Source: Planctomycetota bacterium (GTDB lineage Bacteria; Planctomycetota; Phycisphaerae; Phycisphaerales; SM1A02). Taken from it: a stretch of DNA of 64,000 nt. Of this stretch, positions 44,124-63,445 are shown one piece after another; position 1 is the first letter of the stretch; every line of letters starts with the position of its first letter. Where the stretch lies: positions 45,083 through 109,082 of the forward strand of contig QWPW01000006.1 of NCBI GenBank assembly GCA_003671025.1, given 5' to 3'. The position numbers and the translations under genes were made by a program. The notes beneath the pieces were generated by a model, which saw nothing but the letters and a program-made list of their open reading frames with translations, had not been told where the DNA came from and searched no databases.

Positions 44124-47075
44124 TTACGGCGTGCCTTGTTGCTTCTTGTCGACTCCTGCGGTTTCGTCGATGGCATCGGGCTCGCTGTCGACCGACTCGC
44201 CCTTCTTGAGGTCGTCGAAGAACTTGCCTTCTTTAAGCATCGCCTTCGAACTGGTCTCGAGCGGTTGTTGCAACATGCGCAAGCGACCACGCTCTTCCTT
44301 GTTGAAGTTGTCGTCGTTGGCGTCGGGATTCTCCACCACGACCGGCACGAGGAACACTACGAGTTCCACAACTTCCATCGAACGCTCGGTCGAGCTGAAC
44401 GCAGCACCAAGAATCGGAATGTCGCCTAAGAACGGAATGCGGCGATCGACTTGTGTCTCTTGCTCGCGACGAATTCCCGAGATGACAATCGTCTGACCGT
44501 TCTTGACCGTGACGCTGGTGTTGGTCTGACGGCGATCGACCACGGGGTTGGAGTTGATGGTGGTCGACGAGAGATTCGACAAGAGAATCTCGACTTCCAT
44601 CGCGACGTTGTTGTCTTGGGTGATGCGCGGACGCGCGTTGATTCCTACGCCGACGAACTGCTGCTCGAAGCTGGTGGTGGTGCCGCCGGTACCGCCGTTG
44701 GTCGATCCCGTTTGGAACGAAACATCGCTACCCGCGACAAACTTGGCTTCCTTGTTGTCCTCGGTAAACACGCGCGGTTGCTGGAGAATTCGCACCGAGT
44801 TGTCGGTGGAGAGTGCTTGCAAGAAGAACGCGAGATCGTCGGTGGTCGAGATGGTGAGCGAGCTGGCGTCAAACCATGGCGAACCAAAGTTGTCGCTGCT
44901 GTTGCCCGAACCGGACTTTTCCATCTCCAAACCAATGTTGCCCGTGACCGAGTTTTCGCTGCCGTTGAGCGGCGACGCAAAGTCGCCCACGCGACCCACG
45001 CGCGCGCCCCACGAGAAGCCGTCGCCGACTTTCACTTCGGCCAACACTGCGGTGATCATCACCTGACGGCCAGGGCGATCGAGTTCATGGATGATCTCGA
45101 TGACCTTCTTCTCAACTTCTGGCGGCGCCATGACCAACACCGAGTTCTGCTTGGGATTAGGGACGACGCGACTGCGACCAATGAGCGCGCTCACTTCCGA
45201 CGGCGTCTCGCCCGCGCCTGCGCCCGCGCGCCCGCCTTGCCAAGGGAAGGTCATCTCATTTTGCTGACCACCTTGTTGCGCCGTCGCAGTGCCGCCACTC
45301 GTGTCTGTCGCGCCTAGTCCCGTGTTGAAACTATCTGCCAGTCCGCTGAGGCCTTCCTCGGGCATGCGAATTCCGCCGCCTTCGGAGCCGCTCGCCGCGA
45401 GCAGCGTGTTGAGAATCTCCGAGAGTTCCACTGCGCCCACATGCTTGAGCGGCACATTGACGGGAAGTCCCGAAGTGAACGGCTGATCGAGATCTTGAAT
45501 CCAGCGATCGAGCCACTCGTAATTTTCTGGCGTCTTGGAAATCACCACCAGACGATTGGAGTCGGGATACGCCTCGATGGAAAAGATGTTGGCCACTGCT
45601 GCAGTAGGCGAACCATCTCCGCCGCCACCGCCAGCATTTTGCACCGCGCGACCACCGGCAAATGCACGGTTGGTTTGCGACGCGCGCGAACCAGTCGACG
45701 AGCCGCCGCCGAGCAACGTGTTGAGCAGCGTCTTTACTTTGATGGGATCGGCGTAGAGCAAGTCGTAGGTGCGGAAGATGCTGCCCGCCGAATTGGGCGG
45801 CAGATCCCACGCTTGGTCCACCAGTCGGCGAATCTCGGTCAACGTCGTCGGGTTCGCGCGCACGGTGACCGAGTTCATCGATTCAAGCACCGAGACGATG
45901 AGCTCACCGCCGCCGCCGCCCGCCGCGCTAGGCACGCCGGGCTGTTGCGGATTGCCGCGTTGTTGTTGGTTGCGACTGTTGCCGCGCTGCGCACTGGACC
46001 CGCCGCGACTTGCGCCCGCGTCGGCGAAGAGATCTTGAATCAGCGTCGAGATGGTGGTCGCGTCTTGATACTGCAGTCGAAACGTCTCGGTGGCGTAGTC
46101 ATTCCACGAAGGCGTGTCGAGCATGTTGATGAGCGTCTGCACCTTCTTGGCCAGACCAACATCACCCGAAAGCAGAATCTGATTCGAGTCGCCGTCCGCG
46201 GAAACCTTCACATCGGTGGGCAGCAGCGCTTGAATGCGCTCGAGCACATCGGTGGCACTCGCGGTGTTCAGTCGAAATACTTTGGTGACGAAGAGACCGT
46301 TGTCCTCGACCTCCATCACATCTTCTTCAGGCCCGAGCACCACGCCCGGCTGCGTCTTCTCGAAGTCCGCCGAAGAGGTGAGGTAGATGATGTCTTCGGT
46401 TTCCGTCACCGCGATCGGTGGCGTCGCCATCTTGAGCGACTGGAAGAGGAAGTCGAGCGCTTGGCTCTTGGGGATTTCCTTGTCGCCCACGAGCGTGATC
46501 TTCACGCTCGAGACGTCGGACTTCTTGTACGAGACATACTTGCCCGTCCACTCGTAGATGAAGGGGATGAGCGCCTCGACGCCTTCTTCTTTGAACGCAA
46601 GCTTGACCATCTTGTCGTCGATGGTGCGTCGTCCCTCGCGATTTCCGCGCAGCTGCGACGGCGGAGTCGCGGGCGCGGCCGTTGCGTTGTAGCTCGCGAC
46701 GGTGCGCACATCGTTTTGGATCGGCGCGGTGTCGCGCGCGGGCACAGGTGTTGGGGTCGGCGCTGGTGCAGGAGTCGGCGCGGTGGCCGGAGTTTCTGCC
46801 GCCGCTGGCGTGACGGGCGCAGTTGTTGGCTCGACGGGTGGCGTCGTCGGCGCAGCGGCTGGTTCAACCGGCGGAGTCACTGGCGGCGCGGTCGGCGCAA
46901 CTGCGGGCGTTGGCGTCGCATCTTGCGTTGGCGTCGGTGCCGCGGAAGGAGTGGGGCGGTTCGAATCGGCAAGCGAGGCGGGCACGAACATGCCCGCGAT
47001 CGCGATGAACGCCGTCGCACGGATGACATCACTCAGACGAGTGGTGCGCGGGAATGGTCGGTAGATCTTCTGCAC
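44124..47075 (-). CDS. gspD: Type II secretion system secretin
   Basis: N1-N3 repeats (LVVISKTPENYEWLDRWIQDLD), RQVMITAVLAEVKVGDGFSWG, TTINSNPVVDRRQTNTSVTVKNGQTIVISGI. Confidence 0.95.
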   Translation of the reverse strand: MQKIYRPFPRTTRLSDVIRATAFIAIAGMFVPASLADSNRPTPSAAPTPTQDATPTPAVAPTAPPVTPPVEPAAAPTTPPVEPTTAPVTPAAAETPATAPTPAPAPTPTPVPARDTAPIQNDVRTVASYNATAAPATPPSQLRGNREGRRTIDDKMVKLAFKEEGVEALIPFIYEWTGKYVSYKKSDVSSVKITLVGDKEIPKSQALDFLFQSLKMATPPIAVTETEDIIYLTSSADFEKTQPGVVLGPEEDVMEVEDNGLFVTKVFRLNTASATDVLERIQALLPTDVKVSADGDSNQILLSGDVGLAKKVQTLINMLDTPSWNDYATETFRLQYQDATTISTLIQDLFADAGASRGGSSAQRGNSRNQQQRGNPQQPGVPSAAGGGGGELIVSVLESMNSVTVRANPTTLTEIRRLVDQAWDLPPNSAGSIFRTYDLLYADPIKVKTLLNTLLGGGSSTGSRASQTNRAFAGGRAVQNAGGGGGDGSPTAAVANIFSIEAYPDSNRLVVISKTPENYEWLDRWIQDLDQPFTSGLPVNVPLKHVGAVELSEILNTLLAASGSEGGGIRMPEEGLSGLADSFNTGLGATDTSGGTATAQQGGQQNEMTFPWQGGRAGAGAGETPSEVSALIGRSRVVPNPKQNSVLVMAPPEVEKKVIEIIHELDRPGRQVMITAVLAEVKVGDGFSWGARVGRVGDFASPLNGSENSVTGNIGLEMEKSGSGNSSDNFGSPWFDASSLTISTTDDLAFFLQALSTDNSVRILQQPRVFTEDNKEAKFVAGSDVSFQTGSTNGGTGGTTTSFEQQFVGVGINARPRITQDNNVAMEVEILLSNLSSTTINSNPVVDRRQTNTSVTVKNGQTIVISGIRREQETQVDRRIPFLGDIPILGAAFSSTERSMEVVELVVFLVPVVVENPDANDDNFNKEERGRLRMLQQPLETSSKAMLKEGKFFDDLKKGESVDSEPDAIDETAGVDKKQQGTP

Positions 47076-49280: not shown

Positions 49281-51338
49281 TTAGGTTTTGCTCTTCAAGT
49301 AGTCGAGGATGCGATTGAAATCCGCGGCAAGACGCTTGCGCGTTTCCGCATCGAGGTCGGCGCGATTCTTGGATTTGGCCAGTTCGCCCAGACGCGCGCG
49401 CGCTTGCTCTTTAGTCATCGCTTTGAGTTGCTCATCGGTGAACGGCTCGGGGATCACGAGGTTCGCCGCGGCGACTCCGCCGGGTCCACCACCTGCGCCG
49501 CTGCCAGTGCGCGGAGTTGCGGTTGCGCTGCCGGCGTCAGTCTTGGGCGCGTTGGGATCGACAGTCTCGGGAGTCGTTGCGGGCGGAGGTGTATCGCGAC
49601 GACCGATGCCGCGCGTGCCCATCGGCCGACTCGCCGCGTCGGCGCCCGTTGTCGCGTCGGGGTTTGGCGTCGCCGCGGCGTCTGCGTTGGCAAGCACAGC
49701 GGTTGTCGCAAGGGCTGCCGCAGGTGACTCGTTGGATTTATTCTCTGACTCGTCTTCGGTTTCAGCGCCCTCGTTGTTGCTTCCGCCTCGAGTTGAGCCA
49801 GAATTCGACGCGGCGTCTGCGCGCGCGTTGGAGTTCGCAGCAGGGGCGCCGCCGACTGTTTCGTCCGCATTCGGATCGCCGTACTTGCGCTGCGAAAGTG
49901 TCTTCACACTCCAGTCGCGGTCGGCTTCGATGCGCGCGTCACGCGTGGCATTCACGATCGCGGCGTCGAGATCAAACTTGAAGATTCCGCGGCCATCCGG
50001 CATGTTCCAGCGCCAGCGCGTCTTCTCAAACACGCCCGAACTGTCCATGTATTCGGCCATCTTGTTGACCGACTCGGCGGCGGAGTTCTCGCCTTGCGCT
50101 TTCGCTTCGGCCTTGACGCTGATGCCTTGCGTCGACGAAATCTGAATCGACTCGATCTCGATTCCGTCAGGCGTGCTGCACGCGAGATCGCCGAGCAACT
50201 TCGCGACGGGAACCGTGCGCTTGCTCAGCTCGGAGTAGAGCGCGATGCGGCTCTCGATTTCGCGCTGCTGACGATCGAACTTTCCGTATTCGTCAGGCAT
50301 CTTCCATTCGAGAATCTGTACCCGCGTCCAGTTCGCGACGATCGGCGCAACGCCGAGCACGAGAAAGGCGACCAGCGCGACGCGCAGGGCGCGGCTGGGA
50401 TTCGAGTAATGCTGCACGAAGCGCTCGATGCGCGAGGGAAGTAGCGATTGCTCACGCCGTGCGAGAGTGGCGAGGCTCGAGAGCGGACCCGTTGCGACGA
50501 TCGTGGCCGCGAGCAGAATCGCCCACTCGCGCCACCATTTGGCGTCGCGTTGCGCGGCTTCGACTTGCACCGAAAGCTGCGACGCGAGCAGTGCGCGAAT
50601 GGCGGGATCGAGCATGAGCACGGTGTCGCCCACGCGCTCGGCGCCGGCTTCGGTTTGCGCGATGATGCTGGCCACCCGCGCTGGTTCGATTCCCGCGTTG
50701 AGCGCGGTTTCGGCGATGGAACGGCGCAGACCTTCGTTCCACACGTTGTCGTCTTCGCTGGCGGTCTCGCGCGTCGCGCGCAGGACGAAGCCGCTTGCGC
50801 AGCGCATCGCGATGGCGATCGAACCGTCGCTGCGATCGGCGCGCAGTGCGGGCAGCTCGCCTGAGGCAAGCACCAACATCGCGGCGGGTTCAGGGATGTA
50901 TCGAGTGATTGATTCGAGTTTGGCGGGGACCGCGACGCCAACATGCGCAGCGGGCCACGCGATGATCACGCCTTGGCGATCGTCCGCGGTGGCGTCGCCG
51001 GTGAAGGCAAGGCCCAAACGCGAACTAGGAATCGAGCCGAGGAACATGCCCTCAGCCTGCATCCGCAGCGCGACCAGCATCAGATTCGGCGCTGCGTTTG
51101 GGATCGTGGAAAGCCGCACGATCGAGGAAGAAGCTGGCAACATCACCCGAAGATCGCCGCATTTCGCGTCACGGAGCCAGTTGCTCAGTCCCGTGGAATC
51201 TTCGCGGGGGAACTCACGTGCCTCAAGAACAGTGGCCTGAGTGCCTCGGCGAACGAGCAGGACTCGCCACGCATTGGCACGGTGCTCGGCAATGGCCAGG
51301 AGCGAGTCATCGAGGGCGGGTGGGGACGGCTGCTTCAC
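49281..51338 (-). CDS. GspL-like (PilM/PilN-type) type II secretion protein
   Basis: Actin-like N-terminal region plus TM and PilN-like periplasmic domain (DLACSTPDGIEIESIQISSTQGISVKAEA). Confidence 0.65.
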   Translation of the reverse strand: MKQPSPPALDDSLLAIAEHRANAWRVLLVRRGTQATVLEAREFPREDSTGLSNWLRDAKCGDLRVMLPASSSIVRLSTIPNAAPNLMLVALRMQAEGMFLGSIPSSRLGLAFTGDATADDRQGVIIAWPAAHVGVAVPAKLESITRYIPEPAAMLVLASGELPALRADRSDGSIAIAMRCASGFVLRATRETASEDDNVWNEGLRRSIAETALNAGIEPARVASIIAQTEAGAERVGDTVLMLDPAIRALLASQLSVQVEAAQRDAKWWREWAILLAATIVATGPLSSLATLARREQSLLPSRIERFVQHYSNPSRALRVALVAFLVLGVAPIVANWTRVQILEWKMPDEYGKFDRQQREIESRIALYSELSKRTVPVAKLLGDLACSTPDGIEIESIQISSTQGISVKAEAKAQGENSAAESVNKMAEYMDSSGVFEKTRWRWNMPDGRGIFKFDLDAAIVNATRDARIEADRDWSVKTLSQRKYGDPNADETVGGAPAANSNARADAASNSGSTRGGSNNEGAETEDESENKSNESPAAALATTAVLANADAAATPNPDATTGADAASRPMGTRGIGRRDTPPPATTPETVDPNAPKTDAGSATATPRTGSGAGGGPGGVAAANLVIPEPFTDEQLKAMTKEQARARLGELAKSKNRADLDAETRKRLAADFNRILDYLKSKT

Positions 51339-52798
51339 TGCTCTCGGTACTCCAGAATGCGGGCGGGGAGGGTCGAACGATCGACAACCGCCGTGATTTC
51401 AACTTCGAGTCCAGTCGTGTTAGAACGGCCGCGACTCGTGATGGTGAAGACGTAACTTTGCGTATCGGCGTAGGGCGCGAGCGCTGCGATGGCTTCTTGA
51501 GTAATCCGCGTCCCGCCCGAAAGATCGGAGATCGAGAGGAGCCCGGTACTCGAGGCGCCACGCACCGAGATGATTGCATCAGCGCTAATCGGATCATCGG
51601 GTAGCAACGCGCGAAGAACGGATGGAGGAGCCGTGTTGAGGTTGAGCTTGCCGATGATCGGCTTGGTCCCATCCTCGAGCGTGGCCTCCTGAAAAATCTT
51701 GCGCATCTGCATCGCGTCGAGCGCTTGAATGCTCGCAGTTCCGCCTGCTGCTGATGCCGAGGAACTGCGACCGCTGCGACGACCGCTGCCAGGTTGTTGA
51801 CCCGCGGCCGCTTGCCCGCCGCCGGTTGCGAGCGCCGAGAGAGATTGCGCCAGGAGCATTTCCATCTTGGCGTTGGCGCCCTTGGCGAAGGTGGTGAGCG
51901 CCGCGGATTGCGCGGCGGTCACGCCCAGACGCTCTTCCATTTCTTCGGCGGTGGCGACTTTGAGGTTGAGTCGAGGTTCGCCCGAAGCGCCGATGAGGCT
52001 GCCCATGCTGCGCGCAGTGAGCGCCGAGGACCAGCCGCCGTCGAGCAACCCATCGCCGTCATCGCGAGGTTCGCTGAGCGCTCCGTCATCTTCGTTGGCA
52101 TCGAGGCGCCCGTTGAGATTCGCGTCTTCGCCACGCACGGAACTCGGAGGCGCACCCGCGACCAGTTCGAGTTCGGCGATGGAGCGAAAGTTGCCGTTGC
52201 GCGGTTCGTAGCCGAGATCGCGATTGGCGTAAAACTCGCGCTCCGCGCCCATCATTCCTTCCGATTCGTCCGAGTCGCGCCAGTCGACAATCGCGTCGGC
52301 GACATCCATGGTCATGCCGCTGATTTCCAGCAGCGTGGTGCGACCAATGTTGTTGATGTTGAGTTTCGCGTGCTCGTCTTGCGGGCCATTGATCTCGACG
52401 CCATCTTCGACGTGACGGATTTCCCACGTGCCCGAGAGCAAACTGCCATCCGCTGATTTTTCGAGGTCTTTGAAGAGCTGCCGCGCGTTGGTCGCGTCGG
52501 GTTCTTCGGTGTGGTACTCGAGCACGGCGATGGTTTCTTCGATGCCCGCGCGCGCGGCCCATCGCGCTTCGACCTTCGCGATCGACTCACGTCCCATCGC
52601 CGCTTGCCGAAACGCAAGCACCTGCGCCGCACCCACCACCACCGCCGCGATGGCTACGGCCCAGATGACGATCACGATTACCGAGCCGCGCCGCAGGTGC
52701 ACTTTGCCGCGCCGCAGGTGCACTTTGCCGCGCCGCAGGTGGATTACGCCGCGCCTCGCGTTGTGCATGTCACCGATGCGCGGGCGCGTTTCGCTCAT
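51335..52798 (-). CDS. gspK: Type II secretion minor pseudopilin GspK
   Basis: RRGSVIVIVIWAVAIAAVVV N-terminus; KLNINNIGRTTLLEISGM; KLNLNTAPPSVLRALLP. Confidence 0.88.
   Translation of the reverse strand: MSETRPRIGDMHNARRGVIHLRRGKVHLRRGKVHLRRGSVIVIVIWAVAIAAVVVGAAQVLAFRQAAMGRESIAKVEARWAARAGIEETIAVLEYHTEEPDATNARQLFKDLEKSADGSLLSGTWEIRHVEDGVEINGPQDEHAKLNINNIGRTTLLEISGMTMDVADAIVDWRDSDESEGMMGAEREFYANRDLGYEPRNGNFRSIAELELVAGAPPSSVRGEDANLNGRLDANEDDGALSEPRDDGDGLLDGGWSSALTARSMGSLIGASGEPRLNLKVATAEEMEERLGVTAAQSAALTTFAKGANAKMEMLLAQSLSALATGGGQAAAGQQPGSGRRSGRSSSASAAGGTASIQALDAMQMRKIFQEATLEDGTKPIIGKLNLNTAPPSVLRALLPDDPISADAIISVRGASSTGLLSISDLSGGTRITQEAIAALAPYADTQSYVFTITSRGRSNTTGLEVEITAVVDRSTLPARILEYREQ
52685..52768. 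repeat. 21-bp tandem repeat (3 full copies plus a degenerate fourth) in the gspK leader
   Basis: gccgcgccgcaggtgcacttt units; encodes ARRGVIH-LRRGKVH-LRRGKVH-LRRG. Confidence 0.92.
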
Positions 52799-53844
52799 CG
52801 ACGATTGCCTCGCGACGATCCGAATCCGTTGCCGTTGCCGTTACCGAGTTGAGTCGCGCCGCCGCCGCTGCCGCCAAAGCTCGGACGACCACCGCCACCG
52901 CCGCCCATTCCGCCGCCGTTGCCGCCGCCGGGACGACCGCCGCCGAAGCCGCCCCCAGGACGACCGCCACCTTCGCCACGACCGCCACCTTCACCGCGAC
53001 CGCCGCCGCGACCGCCGCCGCCGCCGAATTGCACTCCGCCGTCCGTGAGCACGCCGCCAGCTGCTGCGGCGTCCGCTGCGGGATCGGTTGGAGTTTCGCC
53101 GGCCGCGGCCTCTTCAGCTGCTTCTTCCTCTTCGGTTGGTGGAGCGACGATGCGATCGATCGCAACTTGGGTGCGCAGCACAGAAATCGCGCGCCTCGCA
53201 TCGCTCATCTCCGCGCCCGCGGCGTCGCCGGTGGCAGTCACCGTGATGCGCAGCGCCCAGGGCAGACCCATCGAGTCGGAGTCCCAATCTTGATACCACT
53301 GCTCGCCGTCGTAGGCCTCGATTGAGACGCCCATGATGCCATCAACGCCTGGCGTCGCCACTCCGCCGCCTTCGCCGTTTTCATCAGGCACGGGATCGCG
53401 ACGCGTCCAAAGCACACTGCCCGCGGAGTCATCTTCGATGCGATGTTGCGTCTCGTACTCGCTGCCTTCGCCCGAGTAAATGTCGCGCTTGGTGGGACGA
53501 AGTCGCGTGTTGTAGACGAGGATTTCATCGCGATCCATCTCGCCGTAGCCGGTGTAGGCCACGCCGTCGAGAAGAAGCACGCGCGTGTAGAAGAGATCGC
53601 CGTCGCGCAACACGGCCGCGACATCGCGACGAATTGCATCGAGCCCAGCAGAGGCGCGCGTGACTGCTTCGAGTCGAATGCGTGCGGCATCGCGCCCGCG
53701 CGAGATGCGCGAGAGCACCGTCGCGATGGTGACGACCACCATCGCGCTCACCGCGATTGCGATCACCAACTCGATGATGGTGAACGCGCCCGCGTTACTA
53801 CGGTGATGCTTGTGCGCTCTCACGGGCTGCTTCGATTTCGGCAT
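52795..53844 (-). CDS. Type II secretion minor pseudopilin (GspJ-like) with Gly/Arg-rich tail
   Basis: GAFTIIELVIAIAVSAM class III signal; C-terminal GGGGRGGGRGEGGGRGEGGGRPGGGFGGG. Confidence 0.78.
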   Translation of the reverse strand: MPKSKQPVRAHKHHRSNAGAFTIIELVIAIAVSAMVVVTIATVLSRISRGRDAARIRLEAVTRASAGLDAIRRDVAAVLRDGDLFYTRVLLLDGVAYTGYGEMDRDEILVYNTRLRPTKRDIYSGEGSEYETQHRIEDDSAGSVLWTRRDPVPDENGEGGGVATPGVDGIMGVSIEAYDGEQWYQDWDSDSMGLPWALRITVTATGDAAGAEMSDARRAISVLRTQVAIDRIVAPPTEEEEAAEEAAAGETPTDPAADAAAAGGVLTDGGVQFGGGGGRGGGRGEGGGRGEGGGRPGGGFGGGRPGGGNGGGMGGGGGGRPSFGGSGGGATQLGNGNGNGFGSSRGNRR

Positions 53845-54310
53845 AGCGGGCCTCACGATCAATGGGTTCAAGAGGGGTACGAATGGGATCGGGTTCTTCA
53901 CCGCGTTTTTCGGCGATGTATGTCTCAATGATGTACTCACGGCCGCCATCATGACTCACCGTGGCGCGCACGAGTGCAGGAACTCCCGAGCCTCCTTGCT
54001 CGATTTCAATCACGAAAGAAAACGCCTCATAAGGCGTGCCTGATTCGAAGTGTCCCGCGAGCGGATGAATGTCGCCGTATTCGACGGGACCTTCGGTGAG
54101 CACGCTCGCGAGTATCTCATCGATCGCGTGCGCGGCCAACACATCGATCTCGCCGCGACGCACCAAGTTCATCGCTTGGCCGCCGACTGAGAGCACCGCA
54201 ATCATTCCAATCGCGAGCAACACACCGGCGATCACTGCATCCATCAACGCGAAGCCACGACGCATGCGCGCACATCGAGCAGCATGATGAACGTGCGCGT
54301 GCTTCACCAT
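53798..54310 (-). CDS. Type II secretion minor pseudopilin (GspI-like)
   Basis: MRRGFALMDAVIAGVLLAIGMIAVLSVGGQAMNL; position. Confidence 0.75.
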   Translation of the reverse strand: MVKHAHVHHAARCARMRRGFALMDAVIAGVLLAIGMIAVLSVGGQAMNLVRRGEIDVLAAHAIDEILASVLTEGPVEYGDIHPLAGHFESGTPYEAFSFVIEIEQGGSGVPALVRATVSHDGGREYIIETYIAEKRGEEPDPIRTPLEPIDREARYAEIEAARESAQASP

Positions 54311-54972
54311 TTCTCCAATGCAGCGCCTTGGTCGTCGAGATCAATTTGTTCGCGCACCACGACGCCCGGCTCGCCGATGCGAACCGGAACAGTGGTGTAG
54401 GTCTCCAACACCAACGCAGCGGTTTTTTCGCGACCCGCAATCAACAGTTCGATACGAGGTCGGCTGCCATCGGGATACGAAGGAATGTTCCAGTTCTCAT
54501 CGCGCATAGGCACGCCGTCAACCAACGCTTCGACGATGAGCATTCCGTCTGGAAGTTGGACGGGCGAGCTCAACCGATCTTGCTGCCACACGCGCGGGCC
54601 TTCGGGATTCGCGGGGTCGAGGTCCTTGATCCACAACGACACTTCGCCGGAGATCTTGTCGTAATACAGGCCAATTTGCTGGGTTCCCGACCCGTTGCGA
54701 AACGCATACATCCGCAGCAAATCTTCGACTTCCAAAATCGCTTTGTCTTCGATCTGTCGCGCCGCCACCGTAAACTTCGGAACAATCGTCGCCGCCATAA
54801 TCGCCAGCATGATTGAAACGATCACGATCTCGAGCAGTGAAAAGCCGCGCCGCAGGTGCACATCGCCGCGCCGCAGGTGCACATCGCCGCGCCGCAGGTG
54901 CACATCGCCGCGCGTATTTTGACGCGGCGTCGATCGCTGAAGATGAGTGATGGAGTTGCTCACGCGGTGCAA
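54304..54972 (-). CDS. Type II secretion pseudopilin (GspH-like)
   Basis: LRRGFSLLEIVIVSIMLAIMAATIVP. Confidence 0.8.
   Translation of the reverse strand: MHRVSNSITHLQRSTPRQNTRGDVHLRRGDVHLRRGDVHLRRGFSLLEIVIVSIMLAIMAATIVPKFTVAARQIEDKAILEVEDLLRMYAFRNGSGTQQIGLYYDKISGEVSLWIKDLDPANPEGPRVWQQDRLSSPVQLPDGMLIVEALVDGVPMRDENWNIPSYPDGSRPRIELLIAGREKTAALVLETYTTVPVRIGEPGVVVREQIDLDDQGAALEKW
54844..54914. repeat. 21-bp tandem repeat (3 copies plus partial) in the gspH-like leader
   Basis: gccgcgccgcaggtgcacatc x3; encodes RGDVH-LRRGDVH-LRRGDVH-LRRG. Confidence 0.95.
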
Positions 54973-54984
54973 TCTTCGCGCGAA

Positions 54985-55416
54985 TCAGCTGGTCTTCTTG
55001 CCGTTGGTGATGTCCGCGTCTTCACCTTCGCCGCCAGGAGTTCCGTCTTTGCCGTAACTCACGATGTCGAAGTCGCGGCCGTTGGAACCGGGAAGCAAGA
55101 TGACGTAGTTGTGTCCCCACGGATCGAGCAAGTCGTCAGTTGACTCGAGATAGTCAGGCACCAACAGCGAGAGATCGAATTCGTTGCCGACCGAGGTCTC
55201 GCGCTTCTCAGTGAGATAGATTTTGACTTGCTGCGAGATCGCGCTCGCTTCGGTGCGCGCTTGATCTTCCTTGGCTTCGCCGAGGCGCTTGAGCAATTGC
55301 GGAGCCACGAGTCCCGCGAAGATCGCAATGATCGTCACGGCAATGATGACTTCGATGAGGCTGAAACCGCGGCGAGCGCGACGAGTGCGAGAACGTTGAG
55401 TGGTGGCGTTGTGCAT
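54985..55416 (-). CDS. gspG: Major pseudopilin GspG
   Basis: RRGFSLIEVIIAVTIIAIFAGLVAPQLL; LLDPWGHNYVILLPG; GKDGTPGGEGEDADITNGK Ca-binding tail. Confidence 0.94.
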   Translation of the reverse strand: MHNATTQRSRTRRARRGFSLIEVIIAVTIIAIFAGLVAPQLLKRLGEAKEDQARTEASAISQQVKIYLTEKRETSVGNEFDLSLLVPDYLESTDDLLDPWGHNYVILLPGSNGRDFDIVSYGKDGTPGGEGEDADITNGKKTS

Positions 55417-55465
55417 GGAAGTTTCCTGAAGCAGAATTTTGTTTGGTCGGAGCAGCACTGAACTC

Positions 55466-56680
55466 TTACGCGCCCGCGGCCTTTTGCAGTTCGATGATGG
55501 GAAGAAGAATCGCGGCGAGCACGAAGCTGGCCACGAGGGCCATGACCACGAGCAGAACCGCGGGCAAGACTCGAGTGAACATTTTGAGCGAGTTGTTCAC
55601 TTGGCGATCAAACGATCCTGCGGCGTGCAACAGCATCTGTTCGAGACGGCCTGAGCGTTCGCCGATGTTGACGATCTGCACCAGCAGCGGGGGAAACTGT
55701 CCCGAGCGCTCGAGTGGATCCGCGAGCGATTGGCCCGTCGAAACTTTGTCGGTGACTTGATCGATTGCGTGCATGAGGGCCTGATTGCCCAACGTGTCAC
55801 GAACGATCTTGAGTGCCGAAAGAATGGGAATTCCCGCAGAAACAAGCGTTCCCAGCGTGCGAGTAAATCGAGCCACCGCGATATCGCGCATCAATCGACC
55901 CACCAAAGGAATGCGCAGCGTGGCCGTGTCAAAGCGCAAACGGTTCGCGGGCTTCGCGATCCAGTTGTTGCAGTTCACCCACACCAAGAGCATCACCGCA
56001 AGAATCACCAACCACCATGAGGTCACAAACGACGAGAGTCCCATGAGGATCGTCGTCGGAAGCGGAAGCTCGAGATTCGCTTGCAGAATCGGCTTCATCA
56101 CGCGCGGCAACACGAACACGATGAGCACGACGATGCTGGCGCCGATCAACACCGCAATCATCAGCGGATACACAATCGCGCCCACCAATTCGCGACGCAG
56201 TTCCACGGAACGCTCGAGCAGATCCGCGAGTTGATGCAAGATTTCTGCGGTGCGCCCCGAGGCGTCGGCGGCGCGCAACATGCCAGTGGTCATGTCATCA
56301 AACGGTGGGCCGTATTCTTTCGCCGCTTGATGAAAGGTGACGCCCGACTCCACGCGCTCGATGATGAAGTCGAGAATCGTGCGCATGTTGCGATGCGCCG
56401 CTTGGCGACGCACGGTGCGCAACGCTTGCATGAGCGGCAATCCCGCTTCGAGCGCGGTGGCCAACTCGCGAATGAGATCAGCAAGCTCAGGACGCGAGAT
56501 GCTCGGACGCGACTTGCGTCGTGTGCTCGCCGCAGCATCGGCATCACTCAGCGTGACTTCGAGCGGCGTCTCGCCCTTGGCGGAAATCATGCGCATGGCG
56601 ACGTTGCGGTCGGGCGCAACGAGTGTTCCCGTCGCAGTGCCGCCGTCGGCGGAAAGCGCTTGGTAGTGGAAGGAAGGCAT
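55466..56680 (-). CDS. gspF: Type II secretion inner-membrane protein GspF
   Basis: LIRELATALEAGLPLMQALRTV; IVNIGERSGRLEQML; three TM segments. Confidence 0.93.
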   Translation of the reverse strand: MPSFHYQALSADGGTATGTLVAPDRNVAMRMISAKGETPLEVTLSDADAAASTRRKSRPSISRPELADLIRELATALEAGLPLMQALRTVRRQAAHRNMRTILDFIIERVESGVTFHQAAKEYGPPFDDMTTGMLRAADASGRTAEILHQLADLLERSVELRRELVGAIVYPLMIAVLIGASIVVLIVFVLPRVMKPILQANLELPLPTTILMGLSSFVTSWWLVILAVMLLVWVNCNNWIAKPANRLRFDTATLRIPLVGRLMRDIAVARFTRTLGTLVSAGIPILSALKIVRDTLGNQALMHAIDQVTDKVSTGQSLADPLERSGQFPPLLVQIVNIGERSGRLEQMLLHAAGSFDRQVNNSLKMFTRVLPAVLLVVMALVASFVLAAILLPIIELQKAAGA

Positions 56681-58471: not shown

Positions 58472-58478
58472 GATTCGA

Positions 58479-58511
58479 TCAAGACTCGCTCAAGACTCGC
58501 TCAAAATTCGC
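58479..58511. repeat. 11-bp tandem repeat x3 (tcaagactcgc)
   Basis: tcaagactcgc tcaagactcgc tcaaaattcgc. Confidence 0.75.
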
Positions 58512-58543
58512 GCGCACTTCAACGACGCGAAGCCTCACACAAC

Positions 58544-58615
58544 GGCTCTACATAAGGCTCTACATAAGGCTCTACATAAGGCTCTACATAAGGCTGTAAA
58601 TACGGCTGTAAAAAA
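58544..58615. repeat. 12-bp tandem repeat (4 perfect plus 2 degenerate copies)
   Basis: ggctctacataa x4, then ggctgtaaatac, ggctgtaaaaaa. Confidence 0.95.
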
Positions 58616-58653: not shown

Positions 58654-60114
58654 TCAGTCTTCTTTGGTTGGCGGTGGTCCGCCGCGACCTGCGTTGGGAT
58701 CCTTCGTCGCGCCGAAATCGCGCGCGGCCTTCGCGCCTTCCGCGCCCTTGCCGTTGTTGGCAGAGAACGCCGGCGCTTGAACGCCCTTGGGATTCGCCGC
58801 CGCGCCATCCGCGCCGTCCGCGTCGTCGCCGCGACTCTTGGCGCCGCTGCGAATCGCCTGCGAATAGGTCTGTCCATCCGGAATGTCCGCGCCTGGCTTG
58901 CCCATGCCCGGAATCGCTTCCTTTTGCACATCGTTGAGCAAGCCCGCGAGCAGTGTGCGGTACTTGGTGTAAAGCTCGTCGCGCTGCTTCTTGACCATCT
59001 CAATCTCTGTCGCTTCGCTGTGCTTCACGGTCGCGCCCGAGGCTTTCTGTGCAGCAATCTCGGTCCGTCGACGCGGTTCGGCCGGCTCGGTCACTCGGTA
59101 CGCATCGACCATGCGCGATTGCAGTGATCCGTACTCGACGGTGAACTCTGCGCGCAGCGTCTCGAGGCTCGTCTTCTGCGCCTCGGTCAGATCAGCCAAC
59201 CCAAGCGCCGCGTCAATCATCGGATTGATCGGATCAGGACGGTAGACCTGCGGAAACGCGCGCTGCATCGCCTTCTTGTGGAAGGGCGCGCCGTACTCGT
59301 CGCCGAGGGCCGTGGTGATCGCGACCAATGATTCCTCTTGCACAGTGCGCACGCCTACGCGACGCATCATCACGCGCTCTTGCACGGCGATGCCGCCTTG
59401 TGAATCGTTGTTCGCCATCGCTTTGAGAATCGGCGTGATCGTGGCATCGACTTCGGCGTCACGCAGCGCGAGCGCGGCGTCGAGTTTGGCTTCGTACTCT
59501 TCCATCGGAACGCGGGCGGCATCGGCGGCCGACGGTGGCGCATCGAGCTCGCGGAAGATCATCATCAAGTTGAGAGTCTCGCCCGAGAGTTCGCCGTTGG
59601 GCAAGCTCTTCTCGCGACGCAGCGCGCGCTCGAGTCGCGGCCATTGTTCGACTTGCACATCGCTGAGCAGACTCTTGACGCTCGCGAGGAAGTCATCGCG
59701 CAACACCACTTTTTCAGCGGCCCACTCGACGAGTGGCTTGCTGATCGCGTCCATCACGCGATCTTGCGACGCGCCCACGGCGGTCTCTTTCATCTTCGCT
59801 TGGAAGCCCTCGTTGGCGGTGACGAACGTCGCGTTGTATTCATCGAGCAGCGTCTCGAGAATCGGGCGCTGCCACTCTTCGAGCTGCAGCGAGTCGACGA
59901 AGACGGGCAAGTCGCGGCCGAGGAAGTCGGGCATGAACAGGTTGCGCATGCCCACTCCGCCGCCGAACTGGGCGTGCGCCGCGGGCGCGAGCGAGAGGGC
60001 GACGCCTGCAGCCACTACGGCGATGGCGAGGCGCGAGAGAAGAGCGGAAGTACCGAACGAGGCGCGAGTATTTACGCGAGCATTCACAAGGGGGCTGATT
60101 CGAAGCACTGTCAT
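58654..60114 (-). CDS. Secreted hypothetical protein with LTxxQ (CpxP/Spy-like) motifs
   Basis: Signal peptide ...LAPAAHAQF; LTEAQKTSLETLRAEF; LLNDVQKEAIPGMGK. Confidence 0.6.
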   Translation of the reverse strand: MTVLRISPLVNARVNTRASFGTSALLSRLAIAVVAAGVALSLAPAAHAQFGGGVGMRNLFMPDFLGRDLPVFVDSLQLEEWQRPILETLLDEYNATFVTANEGFQAKMKETAVGASQDRVMDAISKPLVEWAAEKVVLRDDFLASVKSLLSDVQVEQWPRLERALRREKSLPNGELSGETLNLMMIFRELDAPPSAADAARVPMEEYEAKLDAALALRDAEVDATITPILKAMANNDSQGGIAVQERVMMRRVGVRTVQEESLVAITTALGDEYGAPFHKKAMQRAFPQVYRPDPINPMIDAALGLADLTEAQKTSLETLRAEFTVEYGSLQSRMVDAYRVTEPAEPRRRTEIAAQKASGATVKHSEATEIEMVKKQRDELYTKYRTLLAGLLNDVQKEAIPGMGKPGADIPDGQTYSQAIRSGAKSRGDDADGADGAAANPKGVQAPAFSANNGKGAEGAKAARDFGATKDPNAGRGGPPPTKED

Positions 60115-60148: not shown

Positions 60149-60337
60149 CTAAAGATCCACCGAAAGGTTGGGATGTCCCAAGCTGCCATACAAGTCTTGG
60201 TCGAAGTCTTGGCCGAAGTCTCGGTCGAACTCTCGATCGAACAAGGTCTCGGCCAGACATGGCGGCGATTGTTCCATCATCGCCGCAAACGCGTTGCCCA
60301 TTCTGAGCTGAGCCAACGAACTCGCGGCAGTTCTCAT
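60149..60337 (-). CDS. Hypothetical small protein with degenerate DRDF repeats
   Basis: MRTAASSLAQLRMGNAFAAMMEQSPPCLAETLFDREFDRDFGQDFDQDLYG...; ATGA overlap with upstream 74-aa ORF; alternative start at 60502. Confidence 0.3.
   Translation of the reverse strand: MRTAASSLAQLRMGNAFAAMMEQSPPCLAETLFDREFDRDFGQDFDQDLYGSLGHPNLSVDL
60192..60239. repeat. 12-bp tandem repeat x4 (aagtcttggtcg)
   Basis: aagtcttggtcg aagtcttggccg aagtctcggtcg aactctcgatcg. Confidence 0.85.
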
Positions 60338-61518: not shown

Positions 61519-62487
61519 TTACGGACACGTCCCCCAGCCGTCGAGAATCACTGCGAGATCGAAACCGTTGATGGTGCCATCCGCATTCGTGTCGGCGCGC
61601 GGGTAGCCCTTGGGCGCAGTGGAACCCCAATGGGCGAGGATGATTGCGAGGTCGGTCCCGTTGGTGCTGCCGTCTTCATCGATGTCGGAGCTGCACAGCG
61701 GACATGCTGGGAATCCATCGATGATGTTTCCAAGGATTGGAGAGGTTGAAGCCACCGGCGGGAACCCGTACACGCCGACGTCGCATTGGAAGTGACTCGG
61801 GCTTTCATCGATGAGAACCGTGGTGCCCGCGGGTTCATTGAACTTCAGCAGAAGTTGTGTATCGGAGTCTGCAGCGACTTCGCACTCAAACGGTGGCACA
61901 AAACTAGATGTGTAGCGCGCGCCGGCACTCACATGAATCCAATCAAGATCAAAGAGACACGACGGGAAGTTGACCGACGAAAGCAGGGGTCGGAACAGGC
62001 CGATCGACATGCGTGAATCTGGAGAGTTCCCCGCGCATGTCGCGGTGAAGACCCATGAATTCGTCAGCTGACCGTCAATGAAGAGCATCCCGTTCGATCC
62101 GCTGCGAACCCATGCCACATGACGCCATTCCCCAGCGAAGTTTGGAGCAAGCGAGGCAACCGAATCGGTGCCGCAGGCGTACCCCCGCGTCATGTAGTTC
62201 GAAGTCTCTGTTGAGGAAAAGGAGACCGACTTGGCTTCGTACATGTCGCGTTGCTCAGCAATGAGGAGACCTGTGGGAGACCCAGGTTGAATTCGGACGC
62301 GCATCTCGTAGGTGTAATCGACAGTCGGAAAAACGGTGTTTCCCGAGATTCGAATCGTGTCGGTGACTGCGCCGAATTGCGCGTAGCCGGCGTCTTGCGC
62401 GATGGCGCTCGACACAATCATGGTCGCGGCCGTGGTCGCGGCCATGGTCGCGGCGATCGATGCAGACGCGGTTGTTCTGTGGCTCAT
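61519..62487 (-). CDS. Secreted LamG-like domain protein with dockerin-like C-terminus
   Basis: Signal peptide MSHRTTASAS...; concanavalin/LamG-like WRHVAWVRSGSNGMLFIDGQLTNSW; DIDEDGSTNGTDLAIILAHWG and DTNADGTINGFDLAVILDGWG; frame open upstream to 62853. Confidence 0.7.
   Translation of the reverse strand: MSHRTTASASIAATMAATTAATMIVSSAIAQDAGYAQFGAVTDTIRISGNTVFPTVDYTYEMRVRIQPGSPTGLLIAEQRDMYEAKSVSFSSTETSNYMTRGYACGTDSVASLAPNFAGEWRHVAWVRSGSNGMLFIDGQLTNSWVFTATCAGNSPDSRMSIGLFRPLLSSVNFPSCLFDLDWIHVSAGARYTSSFVPPFECEVAADSDTQLLLKFNEPAGTTVLIDESPSHFQCDVGVYGFPPVASTSPILGNIIDGFPACPLCSSDIDEDGSTNGTDLAIILAHWGSTAPKGYPRADTNADGTINGFDLAVILDGWGTCP
62420..62455. repeat. 12-bp tandem repeat x3 (atggtcgcggcc) within signal peptide region
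   Basis: atggtcgcggcc gtggtcgcggcc atggtcgcggcg. Confidence 0.8.
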
Positions 62488-62758
62488 CTTCGTGCTCTCC
62501 GAATGCGCTTCGGTTGGCCGCACAAGACGAATGTGCGCGCGCGCCGAACTTTGCGTTTCGAGAAGGAAGAGAGATCCGCCAATGCCCTCATGCCACAGGG
62601 TCGCCAGAATTACGAAAATCATCGCGGCTTTCGCGAAGGTGCGACGTGAACGTGCGGTGAAGCGTTCGGCGGACTCTGGTTCGTTCTCGTCATCCTCGTC
62701 CGCGCGTGCGAGTGCGCTGCGCAACCGAGCACGTTGGACCGCGTCCATTGGGTGCGAC

Positions 62759-63445
62759 TTAAGCATTGGCGTCATCGTCATCCACGAGGATCGCTCGAAA
62801 CTCAGCCTCGCGCTCCGGTTGCGCAATGCGCTCGTCGGCCAACAGCAGCTCAATTTCCGCGCGCAGCCTCCGAAGCGCGGTCCGCGTGATCATCGGTGCA
62901 CGGGTCGCGGCAATCGAGAGCTCGATCTCAAGAGCGGGGTACGAAACGCCCTCGAGGACGTGGCGCGTGAAGAGCCGCCAGAAATCGCTTCGCCCTTCGC
63001 GGGTGTATGCGAGTTGGACCCGATCGCACGCCACTTGCAGCACGCCTCGACGCCACGCGCGATCGAGTGCACGCCACGGCTCGGGATCGAGGGACGCGTC
63101 GGGAGCGGCGAGTTCGGTGGCTCGACGAGCGCGGCGCTCTTGCGCAACGTGTTCATGCGCATAGAACACCAGGCCGTTCACCAACCAACGCCGAAGCGTG
63201 ATCGGCGGAGTTTGCGTGAGCCAGAGCAAGAAGTAATCGTCACGCGCGAAACGTGAACCAATGAATCCGCCGACCAAGTCTTCGGGCGTTCCGATGTTGC
63301 GCAATCTGCCCGCGCGGACGTACGCACAGAGCGGCGCGTATGCGTGCGACATCACATGGCTCCGCGCCAATTCAATCTTCCCTAAAGAGATTGCACGCTC
63401 GAGAAACGTGAGATGCGTCGATGGAAATTCATCTAAGTCCGCCAC
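62759..63445 (-). CDS. ECF-type RNA polymerase sigma factor, planctomycete-style
   Basis: GTPEDLVGGFIGSRFARDDYFLLWLTQTPPITLRRWLVNGLVFYAHEHVAQERRARR and C-terminal helix-turn-helix-like region. Confidence 0.72.
   Translation of the reverse strand: MADLDEFPSTHLTFLERAISLGKIELARSHVMSHAYAPLCAYVRAGRLRNIGTPEDLVGGFIGSRFARDDYFLLWLTQTPPITLRRWLVNGLVFYAHEHVAQERRARRATELAAPDASLDPEPWRALDRAWRRGVLQVACDRVQLAYTREGRSDFWRLFTRHVLEGVSYPALEIELSIAATRAPMITRTALRRLRAEIELLLADERIAQPEREAEFRAILVDDDDANA

Follow-up and report, generated by a model that had tools for sequence, protein, structure and literature searches.

The leaders of two pseudopilins encoded in a single type II secretion operon each carry three tandem 21-bp units (63 bp per gene) placed immediately before the first mature codon; five of the six units contain an identical 18-bp core, GTGCACCTGCGGCGCGGC, which encodes VHLRRG. 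We consider it probable that these arrays represent a coding minisatellite, in frame and specific to this lineage, that lies in the disposable leaders of two minor pseudopilins and was copied locally within the operon, then amplified, and tolerated. As the evidence stands, this is an unusual but modest finding and a curiosity of one species; its most likely source is recent duplication of local DNA in a throw-away leader, as opposed to a new mechanism or a mobile cassette.

A type II secretion operon on the minus strand

The minus strand of the window (the whole 64,000-nucleotide stretch of DNA that was analyzed) encodes a type II secretion (T2SS) operon, as judged from profile matches and gene order. 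The machinery is co-located, with Pfam/NCBIfam matches to a secretin (44124-47075), T2SSF (GspF, 55466-56680), T2SSG, T2SSJ (below its cut-off), and T2SSK. A gspH-like pseudopilin gene (54304..54972) lies between gspG, the T2SSG match that encodes the major pseudopilin (54985..55458), and a pseudopilin gene assigned to gspI by its position (53798..54310), for which Pfam and NCBIfam searches returned no match. These are accompanied by gspJ (52795..53952), the T2SSJ match, and by gspK (51335..52798), which encodes a minor pseudopilin of 487 aa and whose ATG overlaps the gspJ stop codon. GspK matches Pfam T2SSK_1st and T2SSK, and its match to NCBIfam GspK (E 1.5e-20) falls below that model's cut-off. 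The GspH-like protein matched no family in a Pfam search and has weak NCBIfam matches to TIGR01708 and TIGR01710 (GspG/GspH), both below their cut-offs. The start of its gene is uncertain: a start scan offers a TTG and a GTG, lying 43 aa and 40 aa ahead of the cleavage site, respectively. At its C terminus, GspJ is extended by a long, low-complexity stretch rich in glycine (GGGGRGGGRGEGGGR..., 52849-53026). Elsewhere in the window, the protein encoded at 61519-62853 contains a C-terminal dockerin-like stretch (DIDEDGSTNGTDLAIILAHWG...DGTINGFDLAVILDGWG), which is presumably typical of planctomycetes.

Class III signal peptides have a glycine at position -1, about 20 hydrophobic residues next, and usually Glu5. 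The N_methyl profile finds such a signal in the GspH-like protein just above its cut-off (RRG/FSLLEIVIVS, with the slash marking the cleavage junction), and the corresponding GspK sequence, RRG/SVIVIVIWAV, is read as being without Glu5. A Peptidase_A24 (prepilin-peptidase) domain is encoded in the genome. The leaders of the remaining pseudopilins, including those of GspI (ending MRRG/FALMD), GspJ (ending SNAGA/FTIIEL), and GspG, do not contain the core, in agreement with an earlier sequence-only reading, which had described the repeat as absent from the pseudopilin genes between and beside the two that carry it.

Anatomy of the two leader arrays

The gspK array occupies 52685-52768 on the minus strand and reads in four 21-bp registers as MHNARRG-VIHLRRG-KVHLRRG-KVHLRRG, followed directly by TCGGTAATC (SVIVIVIWAV). 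The first register, K0 (52748..52768; ATGCACAACGCGAGGCGCGGC, MHNARRG), has little in common with the repeat except its end, and from its sequence it is probably the native leader end of gspK and no clear repeat copy. K1 (52727..52747; GTAATCCACCTGCGGCGCGGC, VIHLRRG) is the one unit of the six without the full core; it has only the 15-mer CACCTGCGGCGCGGC in common with the others, from which it differs at five of the six first bases. K2 (52706..52726) and K3 (52685..52705) are both AAAGTGCACCTGCGGCGCGGC (KVHLRRG), and K3 adjoins the predicted cleavage junction G/S on its upstream side. The GspH-like array, 2.1 kb away on the same strand (54844-54906), consists of three identical DVHLRRG units, H1 (54886..54906), H2 (54865..54885), and H3 (54844..54864), each being the triplet GAT followed by the core; H3 adjoins the junction G/FSLLE from upstream, and FSLLEIVIV comes directly next. 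The linker triplet is therefore gene specific, GAT in every H unit and AAA in K2 and K3. The hexamer CGCGGC that ends each unit also ends the sequence preceding each array (TRG in the GspH-like leader and RRG in K0).

The repeats that the sequence-only reading had placed in the gspK leader were borne out both by the sequence and by Tandem Repeats Finder (TRF), which reports an array at 52685-52755 with period 21, 3.4 copies, and 92% matches. For the GspH-like leader, TRF reports an array at 54844-54913 with the same period, 3.3 copies, and 100% matches. The same reading held that the units of the two genes differ only in their last three bases, which is correct for K2 and K3 but does not extend to K1 or K0. 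Both arrays are tandem, lie within an open reading frame (gspK and the gspH-like gene), and have a period that is a multiple of three, as expected of coding minisatellites. Counted from the ATG at the gspJ stop codon, the gspK leader is 38 aa long with its units and 17 aa without them; the GspH-like leader without its three units would be ∼19 aa from the GTG start. Because every unit ends in RRG, added units regenerate the cleavage end and leave its distance to the hydrophobic segment unchanged. RNA folding over both array regions was no better than that of shuffled sequences (z ∼0 for each), giving no support for any particular RNA structure across the arrays.

Distribution of the repeat

In the window, the 18-bp core has five exact matches and one with two mismatches, compared with a chance mean of 0.42 for matches with up to three mismatches. 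Across the entire genome (3.25 Mb, 95.89% complete), these five exact copies are the only ones, and all lie within the gspK and GspH-like leaders. Allowing up to three mismatches outside the six units yielded one two-mismatch and seventeen three-mismatch matches, against 10 for a reversed-pattern control, and the sole extra two-mismatch match is not at a prepilin. The degenerate peptide VHLRRG occurs at four further single sites in the genome, none of the four being followed by a hydrophobic segment. There are 29 prepilin-motif profile matches in the genome, of which only the GspH-like one carries the unit; GspK is not among these 29 and was counted as the second unit-bearing gene, placing the unit at 2 of ∼30 prepilin genes.

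The search was extended to relatives and to public collections. No exact copy of the core was found in 180 other genomes of the family, where single-mismatch matches were about as frequent as for the reversed-pattern control, and a tandem pair of units at up to three mismatches occurred in ∼400 genomes of the class only in the source genome. The degenerate pair (VHLRRGx)2 had one match in GTDB, a collection from which records very close to the source genome may be missing. That match, in Actinomadura fibrosa, lies in a longer irregular stretch of VHLRRG-like units with no relation to prepilins (L015:4200-4400, minus-strand translation) and was rejected. Matches to RRG-xxxx-RRG/F..E in 399 genomes of the order included other prepilins and no VHLRRG-like array, and several of them merely reflect a start methionine ahead of RRG.

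As far as could be searched, given that close strains may be missing from the collection, the repeat is restricted to two leaders of one species. Widespread occurrence at unrelated loci, which the sequence-only reading had named as the outcome that would speak against a link to prepilins, was not what the genome search returned, and the leader-specific location proposed there is confirmed. The location is limited to two genes, however, and the suggestion of a general prepilin leader cassette does not hold, with most prepilin genes of the genome and the relatives searched lacking the unit. A dispersed mini-repeat, also proposed in that reading, is largely refuted by the absence of exact copies elsewhere in the genome and in the 180 family genomes.

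Orthologues in the same genus

Orthologues of the GspH-like protein in 14 same-genus genomes are 52-63% identical to it, with homology beginning at or near the cleavage region, and the nearest full-length orthologue available is 62% identical. GspK orthologues in same-genus genomes are 66-73% identical. The gene order G-H-I-J is also present in congeners, with GspK homology at the same loci, and the leaders encoded by this shared operon are shorter there and carry no repeat. Their GspK leaders are ∼11-24 aa long (from likely starts), free of repeats, and end in RRG or RG before SVIV or SVIL, and no such repeat was found in their GspH-like, GspG, GspI, or GspJ leaders. Repeat-free orthologues with homology starting from the cleavage region indicate that the array-bearing genes are intact, conserved genes, with their mature coding parts preserved, into which a leader insertion was recently introduced. 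Conservation of the mature proteins reaches 63% for the GspH-like protein and is about 71% for GspK.

Origin of the two arrays

The probability that both genes would by chance encode VHLRRG with an identical set of six codons is ∼0.001 under the codon usage of the operon, a low value mainly because CGG accounts for only 4.3% of its arginine codons. The shared codons make one common seed much more likely than convergence. Many leaders of this operon family end in LRRG or RRG, independent leader duplications are known elsewhere, and both leaders could in principle have expanded separately from similar native RRG codons; we nevertheless regard such an origin as very unlikely, since the 18-bp identity takes in the V-H-L residues, which are not obligate, as well as the rare CGG codon, and the codon probability alone is already low. 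The consistency of the gene-specific linkers suggests that the seed was amplified independently in the two genes once both possessed it.

We therefore favor a scenario in which a seed of ∼15-18 bp, encoding a prepilin leader end (HLRRG), was probably copied between gspK and the gspH-like gene, in whichever direction, and would then have been amplified inside both genes until each held three 21-bp units, with a linker triplet specific to that gene. An identity of 15-18 bp is short for classical RecA-type conversion, and template switching or short-homology recombination is thus our natural guess for the copying. The gene conversion envisaged in the sequence-only reading survives in this broader form: local copying between the two genes, by conversion, template switching, or similar, followed by amplification, fits the data best, with the mechanism itself inferred. 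Prepilin leaders are basic, cytoplasmic, and variable in length, and are cut by the prepilin peptidase after Gly/Ala at position -1 (PMC10191384, PMC4471445). The insertion would have been tolerated because it keeps the frame and the basic RRG/ end beside the hydrophobic segment, and because it lies in the part that the peptidase removes before assembly; cleavage would then follow the last RRG, and the arrays would be effectively neutral. Several observations count against a neutral, locally copied minisatellite: exactly three units in both genes is a coincidence under neutrality, separated arrays seldom share a unit in the 464 kb sampled, and tandem repeats are no more enriched in leaders overall than in random local segments.

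The coincidence in copy number bears on the possibility that the basic VHLRRG units are kept by selection to tune the membrane insertion, topology, or cleavage timing of GspK and the GspH-like subunit. The unit, its copy number of three, and its junction are common to these two genes and absent from GspG, GspI, and GspJ, and each unit adds two arginines, with basic leader residues favoring a cytoplasmic leader under the positive-inside rule (PMC10191384). We consider such selection unlikely, however, as the arrays occur in a single species, the operon of congeners runs with short, repeat-free leaders, and the leader is gone before assembly. A more elaborate version, in which the paired arrays form a selected, length-tunable module that coordinates GspK and GspH-like insertion or processing, is spread by repeated conversion, and controls pseudopilus initiation through leader length, appears more doubtful still.

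Other explanations account for less of the evidence. Two loci with an identical unit might be expected if a mini-repeat, dispersed or mobile, had inserted into both leaders, and another repeat family (core GTGCCAGGCAC) does occur elsewhere in the source genome, but the VHLRRG core has no further exact copies in the genome or the family genomes, both of its sites are in frame at the same functional junction, and the end of the unit (RRG) is itself ordinary leader coding sequence, making a mobile origin very improbable. Each copy of the core begins with GTG and may itself start a six-residue leader, MHLRRG/, so that the array would multiply translation starts. An in-frame GTG is present in five of the six units, and the leader downstream of it would be complete, short, and type IVa-like. 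This reading is nonetheless exceedingly unlikely: predicted anti-Shine-Dalgarno pairing ahead of the internal GTGs is weak, reaching about -2.7 kcal/mol at best, compared with -5.9 for the gspK ATG at the gspJ stop codon, K1 has no GTG, and the folding results above offer no support. Finally, the genome is a draft in 68 contigs and the repeats are common to loci 2 kb apart, which could raise the suspicion of an assembly artifact. The arrays are only ∼70 bp long, however, differ in their linker triplets, preserve the reading frame, and are embedded, in intact genes, within a single long contig, and we find an artifact scarcely credible.

Tandem-repeat background and comparison with known systems

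Tandem duplication is routine in the source genome, in which 400 kb of sampled sequence held 59 tandem arrays of period at least 9, or 14.8 per 100 kb; two congeners had 8.9 and 29.2 per 100 kb. Separated arrays that share a unit amounted, in 464 kb, to the pilin pair and one pair ∼300 bp apart on contig C1, and other unit sharing consisted of weak single k-mer coincidences. A comparison of 119 leaders with random local DNA showed no enrichment of tandem repeats, and so we do not claim leaders as hot spots.

Two further prepilin leaders contain in-frame duplications. The GspI-position leader of one congener (G003) has a perfect 15-bp duplication, TCCGCGCACCGCGGC ×2, encoding (SAHRG)2 and ending exactly at the cleavage junction (L058:5073-5178). 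Another prepilin of the source genome (G000:C12:84547-84618) has the leader MRKSVRKSVRNRG/FTILELL, with a 12-bp-period duplication, CGCAAGTCTGT ×2 (RKSV). Both are unrelated to the VHLRRG arrays and independent of them; they resemble these as in-frame tandem duplications in a prepilin leader, the first also in ending at the junction, but are built from other units, in two copies and in one gene each, as opposed to three copies in two genes here. In the part of the literature that was covered, tandem repeats were not found to have been described in the leader of any prepilin.

The arrays resemble bacterial in-frame coding minisatellites of the VNTR type in having a short tandem unit with a length that is a multiple of three, near-identical copies, and a lineage-specific occurrence. 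They differ in that the unit codes for the last residues of a leader that is cut off and restores the motif at which cleavage occurs, and in that it is common to two genes of one operon. A hydrophilic, basic leader with a glycine before the hydrophobic segment is also found in class III long-leader prepilins, such as the type IVb prepilins and the major pilins of Streptococcus sanguinis (PMC4471445, PMC10191384). Prepilin leader length varies, being given as 6-26 aa in a 2014 review; the leaders described here, at 38 to ∼40 aa, exceed that range, and in contrast to those of other class III long-leader prepilins they derive their length from three tandem units. The two arrays are a clear natural example in which the motif at a cleavage site has been duplicated, without loss of frame, at one and the same junction of two genes that serve a single machine, and they show how readily the leader of a prepilin can grow. 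Should natural variation in copy number exist, they would provide a simple test of whether leader length affects pseudopilin processing.

Other short repeats were observed in passing. Further minisatellites, of periods 11 and 12, are present in the window at 58475-58607, upstream of gspE, and at 60192-60241, upstream of the gene at 58654-60114. Arrays of GTGCCAGGCACWTTCA with variable linkers occur at G000:C1:67153-67703 (L156:7130-7710), and single-mismatch copies of this sequence are found on contigs C2, C58, C30, and C67, those on C30 and C67 being near the contig starts; this short repeat truly occupies multiple loci of the source genome.
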